A stretch of DNA of 23,689 bases from a virus. The notes below the pieces were generated by a model. That model did no database searches and had not been told where the DNA came from. It saw only the letters and a list, made by a program, of their open reading frames with translations. Below, one piece after another: positions 5,794-19,988 of the stretch. Position 1 is the stretch's first letter, and every line of letters begins with the position of its first letter. A program made the translations under genes and the position numbers. The DNA lies in IMG/VR virus record IMGVR_UViG_3300036760_000871, positions 1 through 23,689 of that record; one strand, 5' to 3'.

Positions 5794-6850
5794 CGCCGGT
5801 GATGCACACCGCCGCGGCTAGCACGTCGGCGTCGACGCCCGTCTCGCGGATGTGCGCCGCCGGGGCCTTGGGCCGCTCGGCGCGGAGCACCTCCAGCTCG
5901 GTCTTGGCCTCGTCCCATTCCTCGGCGATGGCCTTGGCCTCGATGTCCGGGTGACGGCCGGCGCAGACCTTGCGAATCGCCTCGATCCGCTTGGTCTCCG
6001 CGACCGCCTTGGCCCGGATGTCGCCGGCGGTGTCGACGACGGGCGGGGCGGCCTCCGTGCCGGCCCCGTCCGCCTTCGCCTCGACCTTCGCCTGGTTCTG
6101 CTTGACTTCCGTGTCGCTCATGTTGGTTCTCCCGTTGGCCGTTGCGGCCACTCTGGCCGACGTGTTGCCGTCGGCCGCCAGATCGACGAATGAAATCTCC
6201 CGCAACGTAGCCTTGCGGACGACGTTGGCGGGCCCTTTGAACTCCCGGCCGTTCACCAGAACGGCCTGGTCCTCGCGCACGAACTCGAACTGCTCGACCG
6301 ACGCGCCGATGGACGCCTTCCAGGGGAAGCCGTTCTTGGCGTCGGCAACGACCTCGCGGGCGGCCTGCCCCGTGCAGGAGATCAGGCCGTTGGCCAGGAG
6401 CTTGCCGTCCTGGATGCGGACCGACTGCGTGTGCCCCACGCGGCGGCTGGTCTCGTGACCTTCCCGGATGGGCTGGTCCTGCGAGGGGATGGCCAGCCCT
6501 GCCAGGTCCACGATGACGGGATACCGCCACCCGCCCAGCCGCATGGCCCCGCCGGTGTAGGCGATCATCGAGAATCTCGGCAGCGCCGCCGCGCCGTCGC
6601 CCGGGGCGGCGGCCTCGATCTGCATGGAGGCCGTCATCTCGACGGTTTCCGGGGCGTCCGTCTCGCCGTCCCACCGGGCCTGCGCCAGCGGCTTGCGGGG
6701 CGCAAGCGCGGCGGCCTGCTTTTCGCACACCGCCCGGCGCTGCGCGGCGTCGGGGAACTCACGGACCATCGTTTCATCCGCCATGCAGCGGTCGATGAAC
6801 TGCTCTCGCGTCTCGTCGGATTGTCTTTCAGGCAGCGGCACGGTCGTCAT
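5792..6850 (-). pseudogene. Prohead protease-scaffold part of capsid polyprotein (frame lost downstream)
   Basis: The N-terminus has FIDRCMADETMVREFPDAAQ, a segment common ahead of phage prohead proteases. The protease domain follows (about residues 80-230), with GHETSRRVGHTQ and WKASIGASV supplying candidate catalytic His and Ser. Residues 244-340 are charged and helical, as in a scaffold (MSDTEVKQNQAKVEAKADG, IEAIRKVCAGRHPDIEAK). Capsid sequence should follow, but after AAAVCITGG the frame reads Arg/Gly-rich nonsense to a stop at 4916. The ATG at 6850 has GAGGAGG directly against it, so the GTG at 6839-6841, 9 nt from that motif, may be the real start. The gene overlaps the portal gene by 23 nt. 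An internal ATG at 6119-6121 has its own GGAG 8 nt upstream. Confidence 0.75.
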
Positions 6851-8276
6851 CCTCCTCGTCCTGGCGGTCGGACTTCTGGTCGGCGTCGGAGGCCGACTGC
6901 GGCGCGGCCTGGGCGACGGTCAGCCCCAGTTCCTTCATCAAGGCGATTTCCTTGGCGCGCTGGCGCAGCTCGGTCTCCCAATCCTTGCCCTGCCGGGCGT
7001 ACTCGGTGGCCAGCGTGGTGGTGTTGCTCGCCAGGCGCTGGGCCTGGGCGGATGCTTCCTTCTGCGGATCGACGTGCTCGTGGCCGTCCCAGAACCACTG
7101 GTGCGGAACATCATCAAGGCCAGTGAGGCCGAACACCTTCACGGCCTCGGCCAACCACGCCTCCAGGATGCGGTCCAGGACGACCGCCTCCAGGTGGGCC
7201 TGTTCCACGCGAATGGACTTGTAGTAGGTCTGGTGGTCCAGCCGCCCCGAGGCGTAGTTGTAGCCGCTGGAATCGCACAGGGCGACGTTCCTGGGAATGC
7301 TCAGGCATCGCGCCACCTCATTGAGGATTTCCCGCTTGAACTCGCTATACGTGGTGGCCGGCTGTTCGGCCTTGACCTGCGACGGCTCCCAGCCCTCAGG
7401 CGTGAAGACTGCCATGTTCGGAGAGAACTCCATCTCCGTCATGGGCTCGACCTCGGCCGCTTCGCCGCCGGCCGGAGCGCTGGTCTTCATCAGTACCGCG
7501 ATGTTGGCGGCGGACTCGGCCGCCGCGATCACCGCCAGCGTGTACCGCCGGAGCTGCGCGAACAGCGGCAGCGCCGGCAGGATGTCGGGCAGGCCGCGCG
7601 ACTGGCCCGGGCGGTCGCACCGAAACCAGTGGATCATGTCCTTGGCCGGGACTTTATCGTATCCACCGACGGCGGAGGCGGCACCGTCGCCGGGGTGTTC
7701 CTTCAGGACGTGGTACTGGCTGGGGTTGCCGTACTCGTCAAAGACGATCCCGTCCACGGCGTTGGCCTTCGCCAGCGACAGGTCGGGCGTGGTCACTTGG
7801 TCGGCCTCCACTAGGCGGATGTCCAGTTTCACCGGCGAATCCAGGCCGGGATTGCTGAAGAGAAGCGCGAACGCCTCACCGTCCTGCGCCCGGGCCTCTC
7901 GCATGGTGCGGAGCTTGCCGGGCAGGTCCACCGCCTTGGCCCAGGCCATGAACTCGCGCTCGACGGTCTGATTGACCTCGGGTGCGTCGGTCAGAAGCTG
8001 AAGGCGCGGCCCCGTGCCGATGACGTCGTTGGCCAGCGTCAGCACGATGCCTCGGGCGTAGCTGTTGTTCGCAACTTCATATCGGGCGCGATTGCGGAGG
8101 GTGCGACGGACCTCGGCGCTGGCCGCCGCGTCGGCCGAGAGGTGGTCGGCGTTGGCCCAGTGCTTGCGGTTGTCGGGCGTGGTCTGCGCGGCATCAAAGC
8201 GGGCCCGCACGAGCATCACGTGCCCGGAGGCATGCGCCCTCTTCCGCCTTGTCCACGGCCACCATCCCATGCTCAC
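6828..8276 (-). CDS. Lambda-family portal protein
   Basis: This 482-residue protein has the features of lambda gpB-type portals, the dodecameric ring through which DNA enters and leaves the head: NRKHWANADHLSADAAA near the N-terminus, RYEVANNSYARGIVLTLAND, IGTGPRLQLL, AQDGEAFALLFSN, VDGIVFDEYGNPSQYHVLKE, MIHWFRCDRPGQSRGLPD, and the helical stem with VARCLSIPRNVALCDSSGYN. Length is normal for the family, about 480-550. The start is a GTG (8274-8276) overlapping the stop of the gpW-like gene (GTGA); an ATG two codons later is also possible. The acidic end (QDEEDDDRAAA) overlaps the protease start. Confidence 0.92.
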   Translation of the reverse strand: MSMGWWPWTRRKRAHASGHVMLVRARFDAAQTTPDNRKHWANADHLSADAAASAEVRRTLRNRARYEVANNSYARGIVLTLANDVIGTGPRLQLLTDAPEVNQTVEREFMAWAKAVDLPGKLRTMREARAQDGEAFALLFSNPGLDSPVKLDIRLVEADQVTTPDLSLAKANAVDGIVFDEYGNPSQYHVLKEHPGDGAASAVGGYDKVPAKDMIHWFRCDRPGQSRGLPDILPALPLFAQLRRYTLAVIAAAESAANIAVLMKTSAPAGGEAAEVEPMTEMEFSPNMAVFTPEGWEPSQVKAEQPATTYSEFKREILNEVARCLSIPRNVALCDSSGYNYASGRLDHQTYYKSIRVEQAHLEAVVLDRILEAWLAEAVKVFGLTGLDDVPHQWFWDGHEHVDPQKEASAQAQRLASNTTTLATEYARQGKDWETELRQRAKEIALMKELGLTVAQAAPQSASDADQKSDRQDEEDDDRAAA

Positions 8277-8764: not shown

Positions 8765-8962
8765 TCACGTCTGGCCCAGGGCGCGTTCGCACGTCGTCAT
8801 CCGCTGTCCGCAGTGCCGACAGCGGCGATAGCGGATGATCATGTGATTGATCTTTCGCGTGTGGTCGACCATAAAGTGACGGCACCCGCACTTGCGGCAT
8901 TCGAGGCCAGCGGTGGCGGTCTGGGGCGGCCATTTCCTGCGCTCCGTCGTGGCGGCCTTCAT
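8765..8962 (-). CDS. Zinc-ribbon protein
   Basis: This 65-residue protein has two Cys pairs, ECRKCGCRHF near residues 21-30 and RRCRHCGQRMTTCERA near residues 47-62, spaced as in a zinc ribbon. The pattern resembles the NrdR-type ribbon and small phage regulators such as Com or Ogr-like proteins. It begins with an ATG overlapping the terminase stop (ATGA), so it is probably translated with the terminase. Binding to DNA or RNA is likely; the target is unknown. It is the last gene before the terminator at 8573-8610. Confidence 0.65.
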   Translation of the reverse strand: MKAATTERRKWPPQTATAGLECRKCGCRHFMVDHTRKINHMIIRYRRCRHCGQRMTTCERALGQT

Positions 8963-11235
8963 GCTTCCTTCCTCCGCAGGTCTTCCTGGGTGTAGCGCTT
9001 CCGCTCCCTCACCGGCGCGGCCTCACCGGCGGGCTTGACGCCCACCATGCTGGCGGCGGCGCAGCCGACGAGACAGTCGAACCAGTGGTTGTCTGGCCGC
9101 GTCGGCCAGGGCGACCACTCGCGGACCACGCCCCCGGGGCCGATGACCTCGACCCACTTCTCGCTGCGGGCGACGTGCTCGGCGATCAACTCGTGATGGC
9201 GGCCGTCACTGCCGAACAGGCAGATCGAGCCACGGTCGCCGGCGGCGGTGGCCAGGCCTTCATGCACGAACCGCTTCCAGTAGTTCACATCCACCATGAC
9301 GTGCTGGAACTGGCCGGTCTTGCGGACGTTGGGCGTGTACCAGTAGTGGCCGATGGTCTCGCCGGGCTTGCGGGCGTACTCGGCGATGGGCTTGCGGCTG
9401 GCGCGGATGCCCACCCCCTTGGAGAGCATCATCACCGCGCCGCCGGCCTTCTGCTTCACGTCGGCGACGACGCCGGGCTTGTAGCCCATGTCCACCAGCA
9501 GCTTGTCGATCCGCATCAAGCTGCCGCCCCGGCTCCAGTCGCGGCGGAGGTACGCGGAGACGAGCTGCTCCAGCCCGGCGTGGATCGCCCCGTCGGTGCC
9601 CGCGCCGGGGAACATCTTGCCCAGCGTCCTCGTGGCGTCTGCCAGCGTAAACGCCATGCGCCGCTGGTCCGGGAACGTGCCGTAATCGACGACGTAGCCC
9701 GTGAACGTCTCCTCCCACGCGCAGACGGCGTAGAACAGCAGTTCCTTGTGAACGTCGATGAACATCGTCAACTTCGTGCAAGCCGGGGGAATCTCGCCGC
9801 GCTTGTAGCCGCTGGTTTTGGCCATCACCTGGTCGGCGGTGAGCACCTGGTCGGAGGACTGCTGGAGCGAAGGCTCGTTCTGGTACTCGGCCGCGAAGGC
9901 GTCGGGCCCGACCGTCTTCCGCAGGTTCATCGCGTGCTGGACGGCGCTGATCTCACCGCTCTTGCCGTCGTAACGCGCCAGCCACGCGACCGCGGCCCCG
10001 GCGTCCATCTCCGGCTGGCGCTGCCGGTAGAACTCCGTCGCCGCAGCCTTGCCCCCGCTACGGCGAATCTCGAAGTACTCCTCCCAGAGCTTCTCGCTGG
10101 TGGGGAACGAGTAGACCAGGCGCGTGCATTCGCTGTCCCACTCGGGGTACTGCTCGCGGTCCAGGACCGTGTCGGCCAGGTCGCCCTCGTACATCTTCGT
10201 GCAGGTCATCAGCGCCGAGATCTGCTCGCCCGGCCCCGCCATGCCCAGGACGTCGCCATTCAGGAGTTCCAGGCGTTTGTGGGTCTGGTCCACCGACCGC
10301 GCCGAGTCCCGCGTCTGCGGGTCGTCCAGCAGGACCAGCGACGGGCGGATGATCGAGCCGTCCACGCGGGTGTGCTGCTGGCCGCGCATGTTGGCGTCCA
10401 GGCTGGTGGTCGTGATGATCGCGCCGCACGAGGGGCTTGTCTCCAGCCCCGCGTCGCGCAGCGCCGCCGGCAGGTCTTCGCCCTCGATGGTCGGGAAGAC
10501 CAGCTTGTTCTGGCCCCAGTGGACGTGCGTCAGCCGCCCCCGGCAGTGCTGCTGGAGCTGGCGCTTGGAGGAGTTCTCCAGCGCCCGCAGCGGGTGGACC
10601 GCCTCCGGGAAGTCCGCCAAGAGCAGCGGGTTCTCCAGGACGTGCTTCCTGATGGGCAGCAGCAGTTCCTTGGCGCGATCGTCGGCCGCGCCGATCAGGC
10701 ACACGAACGGCCGGTAGCCGTAGAGAACGGCCCACAGGGCAGCGCAGCGGGCCAGCGTCGTCTTGCCCGAACCGCGAGGCATGGCGAAGGCGAACAGGCC
10801 GCCCTCGCGGACGGCCTTCTCGATCTTGCCGATGACGCGGAGATGGTCGTCGGACCATGCGCGATGGAACGCCACGGGGAAGTACGTCTGGCAGAACTGC
10901 CGGAACGACGCCCCACATGCCTCGCGTCGAGGATAGTCCGCGATCTCCGGGATCGGCGCGACGTCCTGGATCGATTTCGTCGCGGCGCGGTTCTTCTCGG
11001 CCTGGCGGCGGCGGGCCTCGGCGTAGTCGACCTTCGCCGGGCGGGGGCGTTCCATCTCGTCGACCAGCCATCGGACGTACCGCACCAGGTGGACGTGCGT
11101 GCCGTCGCCGATCCGCAGCGCCGCCGCGTCCATCTGCCGGCGCAGGCGCGACCGCGTCACCACCTCACCGGCCGGCGTGCTGTTGACGACCTGGAGAAGC
11201 TCGCTCTGCGTCATCCTGGTCGGGTCAATCGCCAT
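8959..11235 (-). CDS. Terminase large subunit
   Basis: This 758-residue protein is the packaging motor. The ATPase part has Walker A MPRGSGKTT (about residue 152), Walker B IIRPSLVLLDDPQ and the coupling segment ISALMTCTKM. The nuclease part has acidic residues in TMFIDVHKELLFYAV, KLLVDMGYKPGVV and RPDNHWFDCLVGCAAAS, where three Asp would hold the metals. The N-terminal 70 residues (MTQSELLQVVNSTPAGEVVT, then HLVRYVRWLVDEMERP) look like a separate DNA-binding module resembling the end of the small-subunit gene upstream. It overlaps that gene by 11 nt. The length is at the high end for GpA-like terminases because of this extra module. The gene looks intact. Confidence 0.92.
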   Translation of the reverse strand: MAIDPTRMTQSELLQVVNSTPAGEVVTRSRLRRQMDAAALRIGDGTHVHLVRYVRWLVDEMERPRPAKVDYAEARRRQAEKNRAATKSIQDVAPIPEIADYPRREACGASFRQFCQTYFPVAFHRAWSDDHLRVIGKIEKAVREGGLFAFAMPRGSGKTTLARCAALWAVLYGYRPFVCLIGAADDRAKELLLPIRKHVLENPLLLADFPEAVHPLRALENSSKRQLQQHCRGRLTHVHWGQNKLVFPTIEGEDLPAALRDAGLETSPSCGAIITTTSLDANMRGQQHTRVDGSIIRPSLVLLDDPQTRDSARSVDQTHKRLELLNGDVLGMAGPGEQISALMTCTKMYEGDLADTVLDREQYPEWDSECTRLVYSFPTSEKLWEEYFEIRRSGGKAAATEFYRQRQPEMDAGAAVAWLARYDGKSGEISAVQHAMNLRKTVGPDAFAAEYQNEPSLQQSSDQVLTADQVMAKTSGYKRGEIPPACTKLTMFIDVHKELLFYAVCAWEETFTGYVVDYGTFPDQRRMAFTLADATRTLGKMFPGAGTDGAIHAGLEQLVSAYLRRDWSRGGSLMRIDKLLVDMGYKPGVVADVKQKAGGAVMMLSKGVGIRASRKPIAEYARKPGETIGHYWYTPNVRKTGQFQHVMVDVNYWKRFVHEGLATAAGDRGSICLFGSDGRHHELIAEHVARSEKWVEVIGPGGVVREWSPWPTRPDNHWFDCLVGCAAASMVGVKPAGEAAPVRERKRYTQEDLRRKEA

Positions 11236-12664: not shown

Positions 12665-13051
12665 TCATCGCGTCACCTCCAACGCCCCGGTCCAAGCGGC
12701 CGGGGCGTTCTCGGCCCGGATGCCCACCCTGGCCGGGTCGATCAGGAAGACCGGCAGGCCCAGCTCGAAGGCAATGCGGATTTCCACGCTGACGCCCTTG
12801 CTCTCCTTCCAGCCATCCAGAGCCAGGATCGCCAGCGCGTCGCACGCCTCCAGCATCGCTCGGTCGGACCGCTCCCAGAACCGCCAATCGCCGGGCAGGC
12901 CGTACCGCGTCAGCGGATGCGAGTGCGCCACCGGGCTGAAGACGACAAGCCCGGCCCGCATCAGCGCGGCCGTAGCCCGACATGCGGCCTCGAACCGCCA
13001 CTGCCGCACGGCAGGGTCCGCGTGCGAGTACGGTTGGCCCAGGTAAATCAC
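12665..13051 (-). CDS. DUF1937 family (nucleoside deoxyribosyltransferase-like) protein
   Basis: This 128-residue protein begins at the GTG at 13049-13051 (VIYLGQPYSHADPAVRQWRF) and overlaps the methyltransferase stop as GTGA. It has FEAACRATAALMRAGLVVFS, PVAHSHPL, FWERSDRAMLEACDALAILA and GWKESKGVSVEIRIAFELGL. The YLGxPYS start and the SxGVxxEI motif are typical of DUF1937 and related nucleoside 2-deoxyribosyltransferase-like folds, where the Glu would attack the sugar. It might change nucleotides or sense ADP-ribose-type ligands. Coupling to an orphan methyltransferase hints at nucleotide or base metabolism, but no substrate can be read from the sequence. Confidence 0.75.
   Translation of the reverse strand: MIYLGQPYSHADPAVRQWRFEAACRATAALMRAGLVVFSPVAHSHPLTRYGLPGDWRFWERSDRAMLEACDALAILALDGWKESKGVSVEIRIAFELGLPVFLIDPARVGIRAENAPAAWTGALEVTR
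12681..12709. terminator. Perfect 10-bp hairpin at a convergent gene junction
   Basis: AACGCCCCGG (12681-12690) and CCGGGGCGTT (12700-12709) pair perfectly around a 9-nt loop. It lies 25 nt past the plus-strand HARE-HTH stop and inside the 3' end of the convergent DUF1937 gene. Only a short T-rich end (TTCTC) follows on the plus strand, so it may act as a two-way terminator or as a transcript-stabilising hairpin. Confidence 0.5.
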
Positions 13052-14358
13052 GCCGTCGCCTCCGCGACCTGGACGGCCTCGACCCGCTCGGCCTTCTTGC
13101 CGGTGAACTTCTCCCATCGCTGCACGATGACGTCGCAGTACAGCGGGTCGATCTCCATCAGGAACGCTTTGCGGCCCGTCTGTTCGCAGCCGATCAGTGT
13201 GCTGCCCGACCCGCCGAAGAGATCGAGCACGTTCTCTCCGGCAAGACTGCTGTACTGGATGGCGCGGACGGCCAGCTCGACGGGCTTCTCTGTGAGATGC
13301 ACCATCGACTGCGGATTGACCTTCTTCACTGACCAGACGTCCGTGATGTTGGCTGGGCCGAAAAACTTGTGCGCCGCGCCCTCGCGCCACCCATAAAACG
13401 ACCATTCGTGGTTGCCCATGAAATCTTTGCGCGTGAGGACAGGGTGTTCCTTGACCCAGATGATCATCTGGCTGAAGTAGAGGCCGCATTCCTTCAGCGC
13501 GTTGGGGTAGTTCCAGATGTTGGAGTACCCGCCCCAGATGTAGAAGGAGCGTCCCGGTTCCAGGACGCGCTGAATGTTGCCGAACCAGAGCCGCAGCAGG
13601 CGGGCGAACTCCTCGTCGGAGATGAAGTCGTTGACCAGCGCCCGGTCCTTGGCCCGCAGCTTCTTGTCCACCTTGTGCTCGCCCTTGCGGATGGCGATGT
13701 CCATGCCCTGCTGGCCGATGGGCCGGTCGCCGGAGGCGGCGATGGCGTTGTTGCTGCGGCTGGCAACGCCGACATTGTAAGGAGGATCGGTGTTCACCAA
13801 CTGGACCGCCGCGCCGTCCAGGAGCCGGTCCACGTCCTCAGCCTTGCTGCTGTCGCCGCAGAGCAGGCGGTGATTGCCCAGCAGCCACAGGTCACCGACG
13901 CGTGTGACGGCCTCATCGGGCGGCGCGGGCACGTCGTCGGGGTCCGTCAGCCCGTCCTGCGCCCCGGGGTCCAGCATCTTCGCCAGGTCCTCAGCGCTGA
14001 AGCCCAGCAGGTCGAGGTTGTACTCGGCCGCCTGGAGGTCTTTCAGCTCGATGGGCAGCAGTTCGTAGTCCCAGTCGGCCAGCGTGTTCGTCTGGTTGTC
14101 GGCGATCCTGTACGCCTTGACCTTCTCCGGCGGCAGGTCCCTGGCGACGTGGACGGGCACCTTGGCCAGCCCGAGCTTCTTCGCCGCTTTCCAGCGGGTG
14201 TGCCCCACGATGATCACGCCGTCGGCGTCGATCACGATGGGCTGGCGGAAGCCGTACTCGCGCAGGCTGGCCGCCACGGCCTCGACCGCCTGGTCGTTGA
14301 CGCGGGGGTTCTTCTCGTAGGGCCGGATGTCGTCGATATTCCGAAGTTCAACTTCCAT
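13048..14358 (-). CDS. ParB-domain DNA methyltransferase (orphan, N6/N4 type)
   Basis: This 436-residue protein has two domains. Residues 1-100 are ParB-like (IDDIRPYEKNPRVNDQAVEA, FRQPIVIDADGVIIVGHTRW, NTLADWD). Residues 150-425 are a DNA methylase with the catalytic NTDPPYNVG and, further on, the SAM-binding DLFGGSGSTL, which places it in the beta order (DPPY first). HLTEKPVELAVRAI is another typical motif. Such fusions are common in phages and are usually without a partner nuclease; none is seen here. They may protect phage DNA from host restriction or mark it for regulation. GGAG stands 9 nt before the ATG. It looks complete. Confidence 0.9.
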   Translation of the reverse strand: MEVELRNIDDIRPYEKNPRVNDQAVEAVAASLREYGFRQPIVIDADGVIIVGHTRWKAAKKLGLAKVPVHVARDLPPEKVKAYRIADNQTNTLADWDYELLPIELKDLQAAEYNLDLLGFSAEDLAKMLDPGAQDGLTDPDDVPAPPDEAVTRVGDLWLLGNHRLLCGDSSKAEDVDRLLDGAAVQLVNTDPPYNVGVASRSNNAIAASGDRPIGQQGMDIAIRKGEHKVDKKLRAKDRALVNDFISDEEFARLLRLWFGNIQRVLEPGRSFYIWGGYSNIWNYPNALKECGLYFSQMIIWVKEHPVLTRKDFMGNHEWSFYGWREGAAHKFFGPANITDVWSVKKVNPQSMVHLTEKPVELAVRAIQYSSLAGENVLDLFGGSGSTLIGCEQTGRKAFLMEIDPLYCDVIVQRWEKFTGKKAERVEAVQVAEATA

Positions 14359-14405: not shown

Positions 14406-14507
14406 CTAAAAGGATGTTCCCGACCGTTCCCGACGCGGTCTTCCGCGACCGGAAGTCGGCGGAGTACCTATGGCGTTGCCCATCTTGCCCACCTTGATGC
14501 GCGTCAT
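14406..14507 (-). CDS. Possible 33-residue basic peptide
   Basis: A short frame starts with an ATG overlapping the stop of the upstream Cys-rich gene (ATGA) and encodes MTRIKVGKMGNAIGTPPTSG followed by an Arg-rich end. The tight overlap is the only argument that it is translated; such overlaps are the rule in this genome. The composition is basic and probably disordered. It may equally be an untranslated leftover between the Cys-rich gene and the methyltransferase. Confidence 0.25.
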   Translation of the reverse strand: MTRIKVGKMGNAIGTPPTSGRGRPRRERSGTSF

Positions 14508-14881
14508 ATCAGCTCCTCGTCCTCGTCCGGTTGCTCGGCCTCCGGCGCGATCGTCGAACCTGCGCCAACCTGGCGCGACCTGCGCGGCCACAACCAGACG
14601 TCCTTGCTAATCTGCGGGCCGTGGTAGCACGCGCAGTAGTGCCACGCCCCGGGCGGCGGGTCGCACTCGCGCTTGCCGGTTGCCCATGTGACCTTCGTGC
14701 CGCCGATGTACTCCGAGCAGAAGTAGTCGTCGCCGACCTTCGAGAAGTTGCGGCAGTCCATGCAGCGGCAATGCTTCAGCACGACCACGTCCGGGGGCGG
14801 GGGCATGGTCGGACGGTTCGCCGATCGCGCCGGGGGCGGGCATGACAAGGCCAGCAACTTCGTGACGCTGGTCAGTCCCAT
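14504..14881 (-). CDS. Cys-rich hypothetical protein
   Basis: This 125-residue protein (or about 100 from an internal ATG at MPPPPDVVVLKHC) has Cys residues in HCRCMDCRNF, YFCSEYIGG, GKRECDPPP and WHYCACYHG. The Cys/His spacing suggests a metal-binding or disulphide-rich domain. It ends in an acidic tail (EQPDEDEELI). The ATG at 14879-14881 overlaps the stop of the preceding gene by several bases (ATGGGACTGA), which favours the longer form. I do not recognise the family. Confidence 0.55.
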   Translation of the reverse strand: MGLTSVTKLLALSCPPPARSANRPTMPPPPDVVVLKHCRCMDCRNFSKVGDDYFCSEYIGGTKVTWATGKRECDPPPGAWHYCACYHGPQISKDVWLWPRRSRQVGAGSTIAPEAEQPDEDEELI

Positions 14882-15399
14882 ATCCGCACCCCGTAGATGA
14901 GTTTCCGCAGCAAGCTGAGCAGCTTGCGGGGCGACGCATCGAGCGCTTTCCACCGTTCCCAGTCGTCGAGCGTCAATGGCACGTCCTGGGGCACGGCCCG
15001 GATGAACGCCTCCGAGCGGGCGATGTTCAAGACGGCCAGACGCCATGCGTCTACGGGTTCCTCAGGCGGCAGGGCCAGACGGTACGCCATGGCGAAGATG
15101 TCTTCCTTGTTCAAGAAGGCGGTCCACAGCGATGCCGTCGCGCCATCGGCGGGAGGATCGGGAGAATTGGGGGGTATTTCGGCTATACGCTGCTTACCAG
15201 GCGTATGCGCAGCGCCTGCGCACGTGTGTAGCTGTGGAAAATCCTCCCGATTCTCCCTCCCTTGCTGTAAGACATTGAAATCAAAGGATGTTGCGTTCGG
15301 GAGAATCGCGTTTCCATTCTCCCGAATCCTCCCGATTCTCCCGACCGACACGCGCATAGCGGCCGGCGAAGGCATGCATGACGTGGTTGCCGTGCTCAC
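14872..15399 (-). CDS. Hypothetical protein; 5' half may be origin DNA
   Basis: The frame starts at a GTG overlapping the primase stop (GTGA). The first 85 residues look poor: low complexity, few secondary-structure signals, and repeats such as GRIGRIRENG that come from the DNA repeats below. The last 85 or so residues read as a real protein (LWTAFLNKEDIFAMAYRLAL, DAWRLAVLNIARSEAFIRAV, LTLDDWERWKALDASPRKLL, LRKLIYGVRIWD). A start at the ATG at 15088-15090 or nearby would give a protein of about 72 residues and leave 15100-15395 free as non-coding DNA. No function recognised. Confidence 0.5.
   Translation of the reverse strand: MSTATTSCMPSPAAMRVSVGRIGRIRENGNAILPNATSFDFNVLQQGRENREDFPQLHTCAGAAHTPGKQRIAEIPPNSPDPPADGATASLWTAFLNKEDIFAMAYRLALPPEEPVDAWRLAVLNIARSEAFIRAVPQDVPLTLDDWERWKALDASPRKLLSLLRKLIYGVRIWD
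15151..15342. repeat. Cluster of eight GGGAGRAT octamers (iteron-like)
   Basis: The octamer GGGAGGAT or GGGAGAAT occurs at 15151-15158, 15160-15167 and 15299-15306 (plus) and at 15241-15248, 15250-15257, 15316-15323, 15326-15333 and 15335-15342 (minus). Adjacent copies are 9-10 bp apart, about one helical turn. An 18-mer (AATCCTCCCGATTCTCCC) is repeated exactly at 15240 and 15325. The stretch 15260-15300 is richer in A+T than its surroundings. Iterons beside an AT-rich stretch next to a primase gene are the usual make-up of a phage replication origin. Confidence 0.55.
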
Positions 15400-17807
15400 T
15401 TGATCTCCTTCAGGAAGTACTTCACATGGTTGCTGGGGCCGGAACGCCGGATGTACCAGGACGCCACCGGCATGTCGGTGTGGCGGCTGAGCAAGCGGCC
15501 GAAGGCCACGCTGATCGCCGCGTCGGTCTGCTTGGCGAACACGTGCCCGAAGATGTTGCAGTTCCGGGCCAGCTCGCGCAGGTCCTTCGGTTCAACCTCC
15601 TGGCTGCCGTAGCCCTCGTGCCATGCCCGGACGAACGCCTCCATCTCCGAGCCGCCGGGGTTGGCGCGCTGTCGCCACTCGGCCTCGTTCGTGCGCCACT
15701 TCCGCAGGCCGTTTACCTGGAGGATGCCCCCGACGGTCTCCGACCAGGACTCGAAGCCGCCCAGCCGGTTGGCGTGGAGCGGCTGGTCCGCCGCCAGCCA
15801 GTTCTCCACCAGCCCCAGCAGGCATTCCAGGACGGTGCGGCGCTGCTGCCGGGCGTAGGCGCGGATGTCGGGATGCTGGAAGTCGGTCCGCGCCTCGGGA
15901 TTGGCCGACGTCGGCTCGATCATGATGGGCACGATGCGCTTGGCGATCTCGCCGGAGGTCTGGACGTTGTTGCCCGTGCCGACGATGGTGAGGTTGTTGG
16001 GCAGCGAGACGTTCCGCGAGAAGCCCAGCACCCGCCCCAGGAAGTTCTTGGTCGTCAGCAGGCTCGCCAGGGCGGGCGAGTCGATGTACGGCGGCAGGTT
16101 GTCCAGGTGCATCAGCGTCTCGCCCTGGAGCAGCATGGCCAGGATGCGCTTCTCGCGTTCCTCCTCCCGCTCGGTGATCTGCATGGAGGGCGTGTCCCGC
16201 CCGGTGATGATCAGCCCCATGACCTCGTTGACCAGCTTGCTCTTGCCCGTCCGCTCGATGGGCGCGTTCATCAGGTGCATGGGCCGGTTGCCGTCGATGG
16301 CCGGGGCGATGATGGGCGTCAGCAGCAGGCCGAAGAAGTTCTCCCGATCCGCCGGCGTCTTGAAGGGGAAGTCCACGACCAGGTCGTGCAGCACGTTGTG
16401 GATGACCTCGCAATCGGTCTCCGGCACCAGGTCGCGGAGGTCATCCGGCTCGTCGTAATAGAGACCGTCGCGCCAGCCGGGCCCGATGCGCATGAAGTCG
16501 GGGCCGTAGAACGGGTACGCCACCATCAGATGCAGATCGCGGACGTCGGGGGCGCTCTGCGCGTGGGCGACGACCAGACCGGCGTTGTCCTTGTTGCAGG
16601 CCTGGTAGAGCAGCACCTGCTCTTTGTTCTGGCGGGACGTGACCCACTTGCCGAGCTTGACCTTGCTGTCGACCAGGATGCGCATGCGGTCGGCCGAGAA
16701 CTCCGTCCACTTACGCTTGCCCGGGGGGCCGATGATCTCGCCGGGGATGAAGTCGCGCCGGTAGATGGCGTCGGCAGGCAGGGCGTCGAGCACCTCACCG
16801 GCGAAGTCGGCGTTGGAACGCTCGACGTAATTGTCCTCGTCGTCCTTGTGCGGGCCCGGCGTGAGGATGTACTCGTTGGCGAACGACTGGCACTTGGCGG
16901 CGCTGTCGGGCAAGTCGATGCGCCGGGGCTGGGCCATGCCCGCCTGCAGGCCGGAGCGGATGGTGTTGCGCGTCCTCTCCGGGCCGTCGCCGGGATCGTC
17001 CACCAGGCCGCATGCCCCAGCCGCTGCCATCAGGGCCTCCTCGACCTCGACGCGCTCCAGGTATCCGCCGCCGATCAGCGTGCCCAGACTGAAGGCGGCC
17101 TTGTTCAGCGTCTCGTTGCGGTTGCCGGTGGCGGCCGTGGAGACGGCGTGCAGCTCCATCTTCAGCGCCGTCTGGGCGTAGTGTTTGGCCTTGGCGGGAA
17201 TGTCGCCGGCCGCCTGCGCCGGGGGCGCGCCGTTGCCGTCCATCGGGACATCCTTGGCGGGCGCTGCCTTCGGCTTGCCCTTCGCCCGCAGCCGCTCGAT
17301 GATCTCGGTCGGCAGGGGCGCAACCTCGACATTCCACGGCTCGTGGCCCTCGGCCCAGGTGTAGAGCGACCCCGTGTCGGGATGCACCGAGCCGGGGAAC
17401 ACCACCTGCCCGCCGTCGCCGCGCACGTCGATGTGCGGGCCCAGACGGCCGCTGGAGTTTCCCAGGGGCTGTTCGCACAGGTAGTAAAGGTGATACGCCC
17501 CGGGCCTGCCGGTCAGCGCCGTTACCGTGCCGGGCAGGTCCAGCCCCGACACGTCCGCCCCGGGGTCGACGTCGATCACCACCACGCCGCTGACGCGGCC
17601 GGTGCGGAGACCGACATTGCCCTGGGCAGCCCAAGCCAGGGCTTCCTCCAGCGTCTCACGGGGGCGCTTCTGCCAGCCCTCCAGCGTCGGGCGCTTGCCC
17701 GCCAGGGGCGTGAAGGACCAGCCCATCCCGTGGCCGAGCCGCACGTTGGTGGCCAGGGGGCTTTCAGTACTGGATGCCGAGGGCGGCGAGCCGTTGTCGG
17801 ACGTCAT
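15396..17807 (-). CDS. Primase-polymerase with C-terminal helicase domain
   Basis: This 803-residue replication protein has an N-terminal Prim-Pol domain (about residues 25-190) with VVVIDVDPGADVSG holding the metal-binding Asp residues, HLYYLCEQPLG, and GPHIDVRGDGGQVVFPGSVH. A linker follows, then a helicase-type ATPase (about residues 440-700) with a variant P-loop NAPIERTGKSKLVNEVMG, an acidic motif TLMHLDNLPPYIDS, and LPNNLTIVGTGNNVQTSGEI as the sensor region ending in an Arg-rich finger (AKRIVPIMIEP). It would lay primers and unwind the phage origin. Length fits family members. Its ATG lies inside the end of the VRR-NUC gene (44-nt overlap). The gene looks intact. Confidence 0.88.
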   Translation of the reverse strand: MTSDNGSPPSASSTESPLATNVRLGHGMGWSFTPLAGKRPTLEGWQKRPRETLEEALAWAAQGNVGLRTGRVSGVVVIDVDPGADVSGLDLPGTVTALTGRPGAYHLYYLCEQPLGNSSGRLGPHIDVRGDGGQVVFPGSVHPDTGSLYTWAEGHEPWNVEVAPLPTEIIERLRAKGKPKAAPAKDVPMDGNGAPPAQAAGDIPAKAKHYAQTALKMELHAVSTAATGNRNETLNKAAFSLGTLIGGGYLERVEVEEALMAAAGACGLVDDPGDGPERTRNTIRSGLQAGMAQPRRIDLPDSAAKCQSFANEYILTPGPHKDDEDNYVERSNADFAGEVLDALPADAIYRRDFIPGEIIGPPGKRKWTEFSADRMRILVDSKVKLGKWVTSRQNKEQVLLYQACNKDNAGLVVAHAQSAPDVRDLHLMVAYPFYGPDFMRIGPGWRDGLYYDEPDDLRDLVPETDCEVIHNVLHDLVVDFPFKTPADRENFFGLLLTPIIAPAIDGNRPMHLMNAPIERTGKSKLVNEVMGLIITGRDTPSMQITEREEEREKRILAMLLQGETLMHLDNLPPYIDSPALASLLTTKNFLGRVLGFSRNVSLPNNLTIVGTGNNVQTSGEIAKRIVPIMIEPTSANPEARTDFQHPDIRAYARQQRRTVLECLLGLVENWLAADQPLHANRLGGFESWSETVGGILQVNGLRKWRTNEAEWRQRANPGGSEMEAFVRAWHEGYGSQEVEPKDLRELARNCNIFGHVFAKQTDAAISVAFGRLLSRHTDMPVASWYIRRSGPSNHVKYFLKEIK

Positions 17808-18383: not shown

Positions 18384-18419
18384 TTACCTACCGGCGGGCA
18401 CCGAAAACTGTCGGGTTGG
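18384..18419 (-). repeat. 36-nt repeat, copy A (end of helicase gene)
   Basis: This matches 22164-22199 in 31 of 36 positions with no gaps. On the minus strand it runs from CCAACCCGACAG to GCCGGTAGGTAA. Here it encodes the helicase C-terminus (PTRQFSVPAGR and stop TAA). The frame differs from the second copy, so the likeness is at the DNA or RNA level. Confidence 0.7.
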
Positions 18420-19988
18420 GGCCTCCGAACCGGCGTCGCCGGCGGTTTCCTGGGCAACCTCATCCCGCACCGCCTGGACGAACCCCATCGGCCACTGGCC
18501 GAAGGCATCGCGGAAGCGGTAGGACGCCCAGCCGGGCTTGAAGCCCTTGGCGACGGCGACGCAGGTCAGGTGCTTGAAGTAGGCCCGCTTTTCCACGTAG
18601 CTGGCGGCGGCCGGGTGGATCAACTCGCCGTCGGCGACCACCGGCTCGACCCCAAAGCGGTCCTTGAAGCGGTAGAAGCTCCAGCCCGGCCTGTACCCGC
18701 CGGCCATCCGCTGGGCCTCTATCTGGACCCACATCTGGCGGCGGTACTCGAAGGACGTGTCGTCAAACTCCGACAGCTCGCCCGGGCCGTGGATGGCAGG
18801 ACGACGGCGCTCAGCACCGCCGTCTGCAACCGGCACCCATCCGCATTCGGGGCAGCATGGTTCGTCCATCCCGAATAGCAGGCCGCAGTTGCCGCATCGC
18901 CGCAGCCCCAGCGGTTCGTCGGAGCCAACTTTCTCGTCCGACAACGTGTAGTTCAGCCGCCGAGTGACCAGGCCGTGGACGTGGTGGTTGCCCGCGTGGT
19001 CCAGGACGATAGCGCCGTCCTTGCCATCGCAGGCCCGCATGACCCGGCCGATCATCTGGAGATGCAGGTTTAGGCTGGCTGTCGGTCGGGCGATGACGGC
19101 GCACTCCAGCGCCGGCAGGTCCCAGCCCTCAGTCAGCACCATGCAGTTGGAGACCACCAGGGTCTCGCTGGCACGGAGACGGTCCAGAATGTCATCCCGC
19201 TCGGAGCGCGGCGTGCCGCCGTCCAGATGCTCGGCCGGGACTCCGGCGTCCTTGAACGCCTTGGCGATCGCCATCGAGTGCTCGATGTCCACCGCGAAGG
19301 CGACCGTCCTGCTGCCGGCGGCGCGCTTCTTCCACGTCTCGACGATGTCGGCGTTCAGTTCGGCCGTGTTCGACCGCTCGGCCAGCGCCCCCAGGCTGTA
19401 GTCGCCCGCCACGACGCGGACGCCGCGCAGGTCCGGGGCCTTAGAGGCCCAGACACGGGGCTTGTGCAGCACGCCGTCGGCGCACAGTTCATCCGGCCAG
19501 GCGGCCACCACCAGCTCGCCGAACAGGTCACCCAGCCCGCGCCCGTCCAAGCGGAACGGCGTGGCCGTCAGGCCCACGATGTGCGCGTCGGGATACGCGG
19601 CCAAGACGTTCTGATAGCTGTCGGCGGCGGCGTGGTGACATTCATCGACCACGATCAGCCCGGCCGGTGGCTTTTCCCGCCGCACGAGCGTCTGGATGGA
19701 CGCGACCTGGACCTGGGCGTCGGGGTTGCCGTCGTAACCCGACATGACGATGCCGGTCTTGAGCCCGTGGGCCTCCAGCCGCTCGGCCGCCTGGTCGATC
19801 AGCTCTTTGCGATGGGCCATCCAAAGCGTGGGCATGCCCAGCCGCTCGACGATCTCGGTGGCCATGGTCGTCTTGCCGCTGCCCGTGGGGCTGACCAGGA
19901 TCGGCCGGCGGTCCAGCCTGGCCAGCACGTCGTCGACGGCACGCCGCTGATAGGCGCGGAGTTCGAGGCGCGAGACGGCGGTGGTCAT
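18384..19988 (-). CDS. SF2 (DEAD/DEAH-type) helicase with zinc ribbon and repeat tail
   Basis: This 534-residue protein has the SF2 motifs in order: LRAYQRRAVDDVLA (Q region), SPTGSGKTTMATEI (I), MAHRKELIDQAAERL (Ia), VVDECHHAA (II), LTATPFRLDG (III), then VVSNCMVLTEGWDLP (V) and HLQMIGRVMRA (VI). The core ends near residue 370. A zinc ribbon follows (RRCGNCGLLFGMDEPCCPEC), then two similar units at about 445-465 and 498-518 (YRPGWSFYRFKDRFG and FKPGWASYRFRDAFG). The fold is of the UvrB/Hef-like phage helicase type. It would remodel forks or recombination intermediates. Its 3' end lies in a 36-nt repeat shared with the sigma gene. Confidence 0.9.
   Translation of the reverse strand: MTTAVSRLELRAYQRRAVDDVLARLDRRPILVSPTGSGKTTMATEIVERLGMPTLWMAHRKELIDQAAERLEAHGLKTGIVMSGYDGNPDAQVQVASIQTLVRREKPPAGLIVVDECHHAAADSYQNVLAAYPDAHIVGLTATPFRLDGRGLGDLFGELVVAAWPDELCADGVLHKPRVWASKAPDLRGVRVVAGDYSLGALAERSNTAELNADIVETWKKRAAGSRTVAFAVDIEHSMAIAKAFKDAGVPAEHLDGGTPRSERDDILDRLRASETLVVSNCMVLTEGWDLPALECAVIARPTASLNLHLQMIGRVMRACDGKDGAIVLDHAGNHHVHGLVTRRLNYTLSDEKVGSDEPLGLRRCGNCGLLFGMDEPCCPECGWVPVADGGAERRRPAIHGPGELSEFDDTSFEYRRQMWVQIEAQRMAGGYRPGWSFYRFKDRFGVEPVVADGELIHPAAASYVEKRAYFKHLTCVAVAKGFKPGWASYRFRDAFGQWPMGFVQAVRDEVAQETAGDAGSEAPTRQFSVPAGR

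Follow-up and report, generated by a model that had tools for sequence, protein, structure and literature searches.

We found that an array of short repeats directly downstream of a Prim-Pol/helicase gene, in an IMG/VR viral contig of 23,689 bp analysed over its whole length (the window), is very probably (close to nine chances in ten) a phage replication origin, with iterons that would be bound by the predicted winged-helix C terminus of the initiator encoded upstream. A candidate origin had been proposed here from this one sequence, and comparison strengthened the proposal: the array recurs behind homologous primase genes, where its layout is fixed and its words are changed and track the primase C-terminal domain. 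Computation provided the repeats, their layout and its conservation, the co-variation of word and winged helix, and the low duplex stability.

An octamer array behind a Prim-Pol/helicase gene

The recognisable genes near the array all lie on the minus strand (Table 1). The terminase, the lambda-type portal and other genes identify a tailed phage, and primase relatives at 67–70% identity are found on contigs of Planctomycetota MAGs, so the host is probably a planctomycete.

The proposed initiator has a Prim-Pol domain at residues 28–167 (Pfam PF09250, E = 2.5e-26) for which the best fold match was the pRN1 ORF904 primase (9aam, Z 16.0; 1rni, Z 15.8). PHROG primase/polymerase and unnamed profiles span the motor region (residues 447–776), and a Walker-B-like LMHLDN at residues 565–570 suggests an AAA+-like motor; Pfam D5_N was below threshold on this protein, and the helicase core was poorly modelled, with pLDDT under 50 across much of 506–644. 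The model of the C terminus contains three helices and a two-stranded wing at 717–801 (pLDDT mostly 77–90) and aligned mainly with winged-helix domains (Z 6–8 in structure alignment). These fold assignments rest on second-look structure alignments rather than on Foldseek, which returned no match at E <= 0.001 for the whole model.

The octamer GGGAGRAT occurs eight times in the window, three times on the plus strand and five times on the minus strand. All copies fall within the 192 bp from 15151 to 15342, compared with a mean of 1.42 and a maximum of 5 per window in 100 dinucleotide shuffles, and a blind scan for repeated octamers in 340-bp windows returned the array as the sole place. Inside the clusters, the spacing between neighbours is 9 or 10 bp; two identical copies of the 18-mer AATCCTCCCGATTCTCCC are present (at 15240 and 15325), and the array begins 53 bp past the stop of the Prim-Pol gene. 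With an A+T content of 0.45, 15151–15350 ranks fourth among 2349 200-bp windows, and duplex stability over the whole window is lowest in the 30-mer 15261–15290, which falls inside the array between the clusters. The original prediction had listed the octamer count on both strands, the spacing, the duplicated 18-mer, the A+T-rich stretch between octamers and the position directly after the primase gene, and our recount reproduced each of these; the octamer has no copy elsewhere in the contig. The GC-skew plot that it had proposed was less informative. The minimum, at 15,828, lies near the array but is small and weak, and third-codon skew has no switch there, so we did not take skew as proof of an origin. 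We also discarded a DnaA box: the window's TTTTCCACA fits the DnaA box consensus TTWTNCACA, but is not conserved among relatives.

Table 1 Features of the array and its surroundings in the window
Feature	Coordinates	Strand	Details	Basis
Lambda-type portal gene	6828–8276			Pfam/PHROG
Terminase gene	8959–11235			Pfam/PHROG
ParB_N and DNA-methylase gene	13048–14358			Pfam
Next gene after the array	14504–14881	-	CRCxDCR cysteine-rich domain	Frame list, comparison with relatives
Open frame reading through array	14872–15399	-	Starts at GTGA overlap with primase stop	
Block B' iteron	15151–15158	+	GGGAGGAT, pitch 9	Octamer count, layout comparison
Block B' iteron	15160–15167	+	GGGAGAAT, inverted relative to block B	Octamer count, layout comparison
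Conserved non-iteron element	15212–15240	-	TTTCCACAGCTACACACGTGCGCAGGCGC	Layout comparison
Alternating purine-pyrimidine tract	15217–15230		Within TTTCCACAGCTACACACGTGCGCAGGCGC element; longer in most relatives	
Block B iteron 2	15241–15248	-	GGGAGGAT, pitch 9	Octamer count, layout comparison
Block B iteron 1	15250–15257	-	GGGAGAAT	Octamer count, layout comparison
A/B spacer	15258–15298	.	41 bp, candidate unwinding element	Holds least stable 30-mer
Block A inverted iteron	15299–15306	+	GGGAGAAT	Octamer count, layout comparison
Block A iteron 3	15316–15323	-	GGGAGAAT, pitch 10	Octamer count, layout comparison
Block A iteron 2	15326–15333	-	GGGAGGAT, pitch 9	Octamer count, layout comparison
Block A iteron 1	15335–15342	-	GGGAGAAT	Octamer count
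Prim-Pol/helicase gene	15396–17807	-	Proposed initiator	PF09250, PHROG, structure model
Coding region of residues 716–803	15399–15662	-	Predicted winged helix co-varying with iteron word	
Helicase gene	18384–19988			Pfam/PHROG

The least stable 30-mer lies between blocks A and B, and the alternating G+C tract between B and B'. In the window this tract is 14 nt long and only weakly above chance (8 of 300 shuffles were equally long). The left half of the array is complete; the right half has two sites only and is without a block A'. Iteron 3 and the inverted iteron of block A together make an 8-bp inverted repeat with a 9-nt loop, and most relatives keep both the 17-bp offset between the two and the resulting hairpin. 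The loop of this hairpin (15307–15315 within 15299–15323) has a consensus near CAAAACGCG and, by analogy with the ssi hairpins of RSF1010, could be a primase start site. The 41-bp spacer and its counterparts contain a recurring inverted pair, GYAAS...STTRC, which is a near-perfect 7–9-bp inverted repeat in L002, L006 and L141 and is offset by one base between groups.

As a single strand, 202 nt at the array fold much more strongly than shuffles (z = -5.1), as might be expected of a structured RNA, such as a regulatory element or terminator, between two genes. Inverted iterons give such pairing anyway. An Rfam search of the array found no family above threshold (one sub-threshold chance hit), and the co-variation with a DNA-binding domain described below also argues against an RNA, to which we assign almost no probability.

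Layout and iteron words among relatives

We gathered the primase family from viral contigs and genomes and found the same plan past the primase stop in 17 loci, although the word differs. Exact iteron matches number 5–12 per locus in ~480 bp, where shuffles average no more than 0.1, and the offsets are fixed at 9-10-17-48/49-9-~80-9. Read in the direction of transcription, block A has three direct iterons (pitch 9–11 bp) and an inverted one 17 bp after the third; block B follows 48 or 49 bp after A, with two direct iterons at a pitch of 9 bp. Next comes a conserved stretch, ttCacagCcTTACrCGTGCGCrGGCGC; its alternating purine-pyrimidine tract measures 12–29 nt and is clearly longer than in shuffles in about half of the loci. 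Block B', with one to three inverted iterons, lies ~40 bp past this stretch.

About ten iteron words are found among relatives of the primase gene. GGGAGRAT is shared by the window, L002, L128, L003, L088 and L132, and GCAGAGGT by L131, L140, L142, L143 and L006; GGAGTCT occurs in L133 and L007, and GCCGAGGT, GGGAGACT, CGGATATT and CGTATAGG in L144, L136, L005 and L141, respectively. Further members have CGCAACCT (L156 and L187), CGCAATCT (L185) and GACGAGGT (L004). Of the distant members, L156 and L187 show a full mirror, 3>1<2> - tract - 2<1>3<, with 12 sites in two halves of six, and L004 apparently follows the same mirror plan with some copies degenerate. L004 proved not to be an exception, as an inserted stretch separates the gene from its array, which lies about 700 bp downstream. 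No array was found after the primase genes of L137 and L145, and further viral scans for the primase family returned no new relatives.

The candidate origin is, from its sequence, located inside a translatable frame. The frame that starts at an NTGA overlap is open through the array in 11 of 11 such loci (in L128 it ends at 111 codons, past the array), and four TTGA loci have another forward frame open across it; overall, an open frame crosses the array in all 15 loci examined, whereas shuffles are open in 0–8%. In the window, this frame matched no Pfam or PHROG family. Such openness would suit repeats that arise only because they encode a repetitive linker peptide, but inverted copies and pitches of 10 and 11 bp are out of frame, so that one peptide repeat is insufficient, and the peptide over the iterons varies with the iteron, reading GRIGRIREN, AEVAEV or VESVES in different relatives, while the DNA spacing is kept. 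We therefore regard a peptide origin of the repeats as scarcely credible. Because the iteron peptide differs between relatives, the DNA is what is conserved, with stop codons avoided meanwhile. This agrees with the earlier suggestion that the DNA may be selected for itself, and protein-level conservation of residues 1–85 is indeed absent. The accompanying claim that the frame looks weak over those residues holds for the peptide, which is not conserved among relatives, but leaves out that a frame stays open across the array in every locus examined.

The gene beyond the array also varies. In L006, L007, L144, L088 and L133, a single gene reads through the origin and ends in a CRCxDC cysteine-rich domain; in its window counterpart (14504–15399), an extra stretch (MAYRLALPPEEP...) leaves two frames that overlap.

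Similar arrays were found more widely. An exact-pattern scan of viral contigs identified more than twenty further loci with 5–11 copies of GGGAGGAT in about 300–400 bp, adjoining D5_N-type helicase genes where tested and many with an alternating tract; their common word is a selection effect, as the set was found through the octamer. Cultured phages with a related D5-type primase/helicase have arrays of other words directly after the gene: GGGACGCA in RcapNL (L193, after 3363), GGGAGGCA in AmM-1 (L197, after 3201), GGGARGAT in Pan4 (L195, after 3321) and AAGTAACA in phi105 (L199, after 2943), the last around an A+T tract instead of a G+C one. The records of these four phages have no origin annotation in the array stretches. 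The alternating tract is common to distantly related D5-helicase phages, including RcapNL and AmM-1. We found no array within 440 bp after the gene in RR1-A and SirPhilip, and no repeated octamer after the replication gene of BIP-1. Downstream of other planctomycete primase/helicase genes (L168, L170 and L181), 10–14 copies of GCGGGTAT or CGGGACCT lie within 480 bp.

Co-variation of iteron word and primase tail

Across all pairs of loci, the excess identity of those sharing a word peaks at residues 764–803 (0.214, compared with 0.002 in the median window), and the word tracks residues 724–803 once whole-protein identity is allowed for. Among 1000 label permutations, not one reached the observed value for the last 70 residues, with relatedness controlled only via overall identity. 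The most class-specific part of the tail is the wing (residues 789–796), where the wing hairpin reads SGPSNHVK in the window, RK-xRQA in GCAGAGGT loci and SCGNASK in GGAGTCT loci.

Two loci separate the tail from the rest of the protein. In a maximum-likelihood protein tree, L132, with iteron GGGAGAAT, groups with the GCAGAGGT clade with strong support, and L006, with iteron GCAGAGGT, joins the GGAGTCT loci L133 and L007. The L132 protein is nearer its GCAGAGGT sisters up to about residue 743, is equally close to both groups over 714–773, and is nearer the GGGAGAAT group over residues 744–803 (0.55 versus 0.41 identity). L006 is nearer its iteron-mates in both 714–773 and 744–803 (0.68 versus 0.48 in the latter). 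Past the origin, the next gene of L132 matches the body clade again (0.73 with L131, 0.41 with the window), the pattern that a joint exchange of tail and origin would leave. On these comparisons, L132 and L006 are mosaics in which tail and iterons match a clade other than that of their body; with only two clear discordant mosaics, linked exchange of tail and iterons rests on few independent events. L130, which was outside the permutation test, conforms to the predicted relation of tail to word: its tail reads IRQRK, and GCAGAGGT follows the gene. Inspection of the D5-helicase group added no information on this relation. Judged by sequence, then, the iteron word follows the last ~60–80 residues of the primase, a predicted winged helix, and not the remaining protein.

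This tracking ties the array to the primase, which bears on whether it could instead act as an operator or in partition, with a repressor, a ParB-like protein or some other phage factor bound to it. Plasmid iteron arrays also serve copy control and partition, and the ParB_N and DNA-methylase gene lies nearby. A site of that kind is nonetheless very unlikely, given that the word follows the primase tail and that several distinct phage groups, with different genes coming next, have arrays behind their primase/helicase genes.

Known replicons and a model for initiation

The alpha protein of bacteriophage P4 is a primase-helicase-DNA-binding protein that recognises short iterons at ori and crr. 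It resembles the proposed initiator in joining a primase-helicase to a DNA-binding part and in its short iterons, but differs in having another primase domain and two separated sites. Work on Streptococcus thermophilus phages has reportedly placed origins behind P4-like primases. We rejected a plasmid iteron replicon of the Rep_3/RepA/pi type, which needs a primase- and helicase-free initiator, whereas the initiator proposed here is a Prim-Pol/helicase.

The principle is already known from SaPI, PICI and SCC islands, PLE satellites and pRN1. In SaPI Rep and SCC Cch2, the C-terminal domain reads iterons directly downstream of its own gene, and two hexamers have been proposed for SaPI Rep (PMC7581432). 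The window and its relatives likewise have the array directly 3' of the gene for a putative helicase initiator, for which reading by the C-terminal domain is predicted from co-variation. Those systems have short words and belong to staphylococcal islands; the present one belongs to a tailed phage, and its Prim-Pol fusion goes with a plan that has an alternating G+C tract and as many as 12 sites. Gram-negative PICIs have a pri-rep-ori module in which, as here, the gene for a primase-initiator precedes an origin containing two sets of iterons, and that of EcCICFT073 drives plasmid replication (PMC6092414). In PICIs, an A+T-rich region separates the iteron sets; here, it is an alternating G+C tract that B and B' enclose, and the weak DNA is located between blocks A and B. 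In PLE satellites of Vibrio cholerae, too, the DNA-binding domain of the initiator, RepA, co-varies with the origin; it has been swapped several times, and cognate pairing was proved by replication of chimaeras, with two origin types compared (PMC8263062). Unlike the initiator of the window family, PLE RepA has an N-terminal RepA_N domain, ~30-bp iterons and no primase-helicase fusion.

pRN1 offers a different way to read the array. ORF904 depends on a stem-loop of 100 nt immediately 3' of its gene, a scheme that has been extended to phage BIP-1 (PMC4234260). It shares with the window protein the fold of the Prim-Pol domain, a C-terminal winged helix and an element 3' of the gene. A large single-stranded stem-loop in which the repeats matter by mutual pairing would accord with this best fold match, with the strong fold of the 202-nt strand and with the block A hairpin kept in most relatives. 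The pRN1 element is without described iterons, and BIP-1 likewise had none in our search. Direct repeats at a 9–10-bp pitch and the match of word to winged helix point instead to duplex sites, the orientation rule 3>1<2>|2<1>3< is unlike one stem, and the fold strength comes from the inverted iterons in any case. We consider a pRN1-type origin unlikely, although the least so of the alternatives. Three things are new relative to all of these systems: the family itself, a symmetric plan that is conserved together with its tract, and recognition domains that are exchanged along with their iterons.

In the origin that we favour, the winged helix of the Prim-Pol/AAA+ (SF3-like) helicase protein would bind the 8–9-bp iterons. 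Block A (three direct and one inverted) and block B (two direct) would provide six binding sites on one side, and B', plus A' in complete relatives, would provide sites of opposite orientation across the alternating purine-pyrimidine tract. Initiator subunits would gather on the half-sites, the adjacent weak DNA (15261–15290, the tract region or both) would melt, and the initiator would load as two opposed helicase rings, with the Prim-Pol domain priming the exposed strands. The steps of this model, from binding and six sites per ring through melting and priming to replication in both directions, are inferred. A bolder extension, which we hold only tentatively and think somewhat more apt to fail than to hold, is that the tail and adjacent origin may form one contiguous ~0.5-kb specificity cassette exchanged as a unit, that the wing and recognition helix may obey a readable word code, and that the tract may be a melting or Z-forming element defining a broad, unannotated class of phage origins.

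Phage origins are for the most part unmapped. Here, comparison by itself pointed to a probable origin and to the protein domain that probably reads it, and it supplied natural joint swaps, so that a recognition code for winged-helix initiators becomes testable, and the cultured phages RcapNL, AmM-1 and Pan4, with the same plan, provide laboratory systems. It is likewise a testable idea that origins lie right behind initiator genes since both halves of the specificity then travel together. Tail and repeats changed together while the site layout stayed fixed, showing how phages rewire replication specificity.
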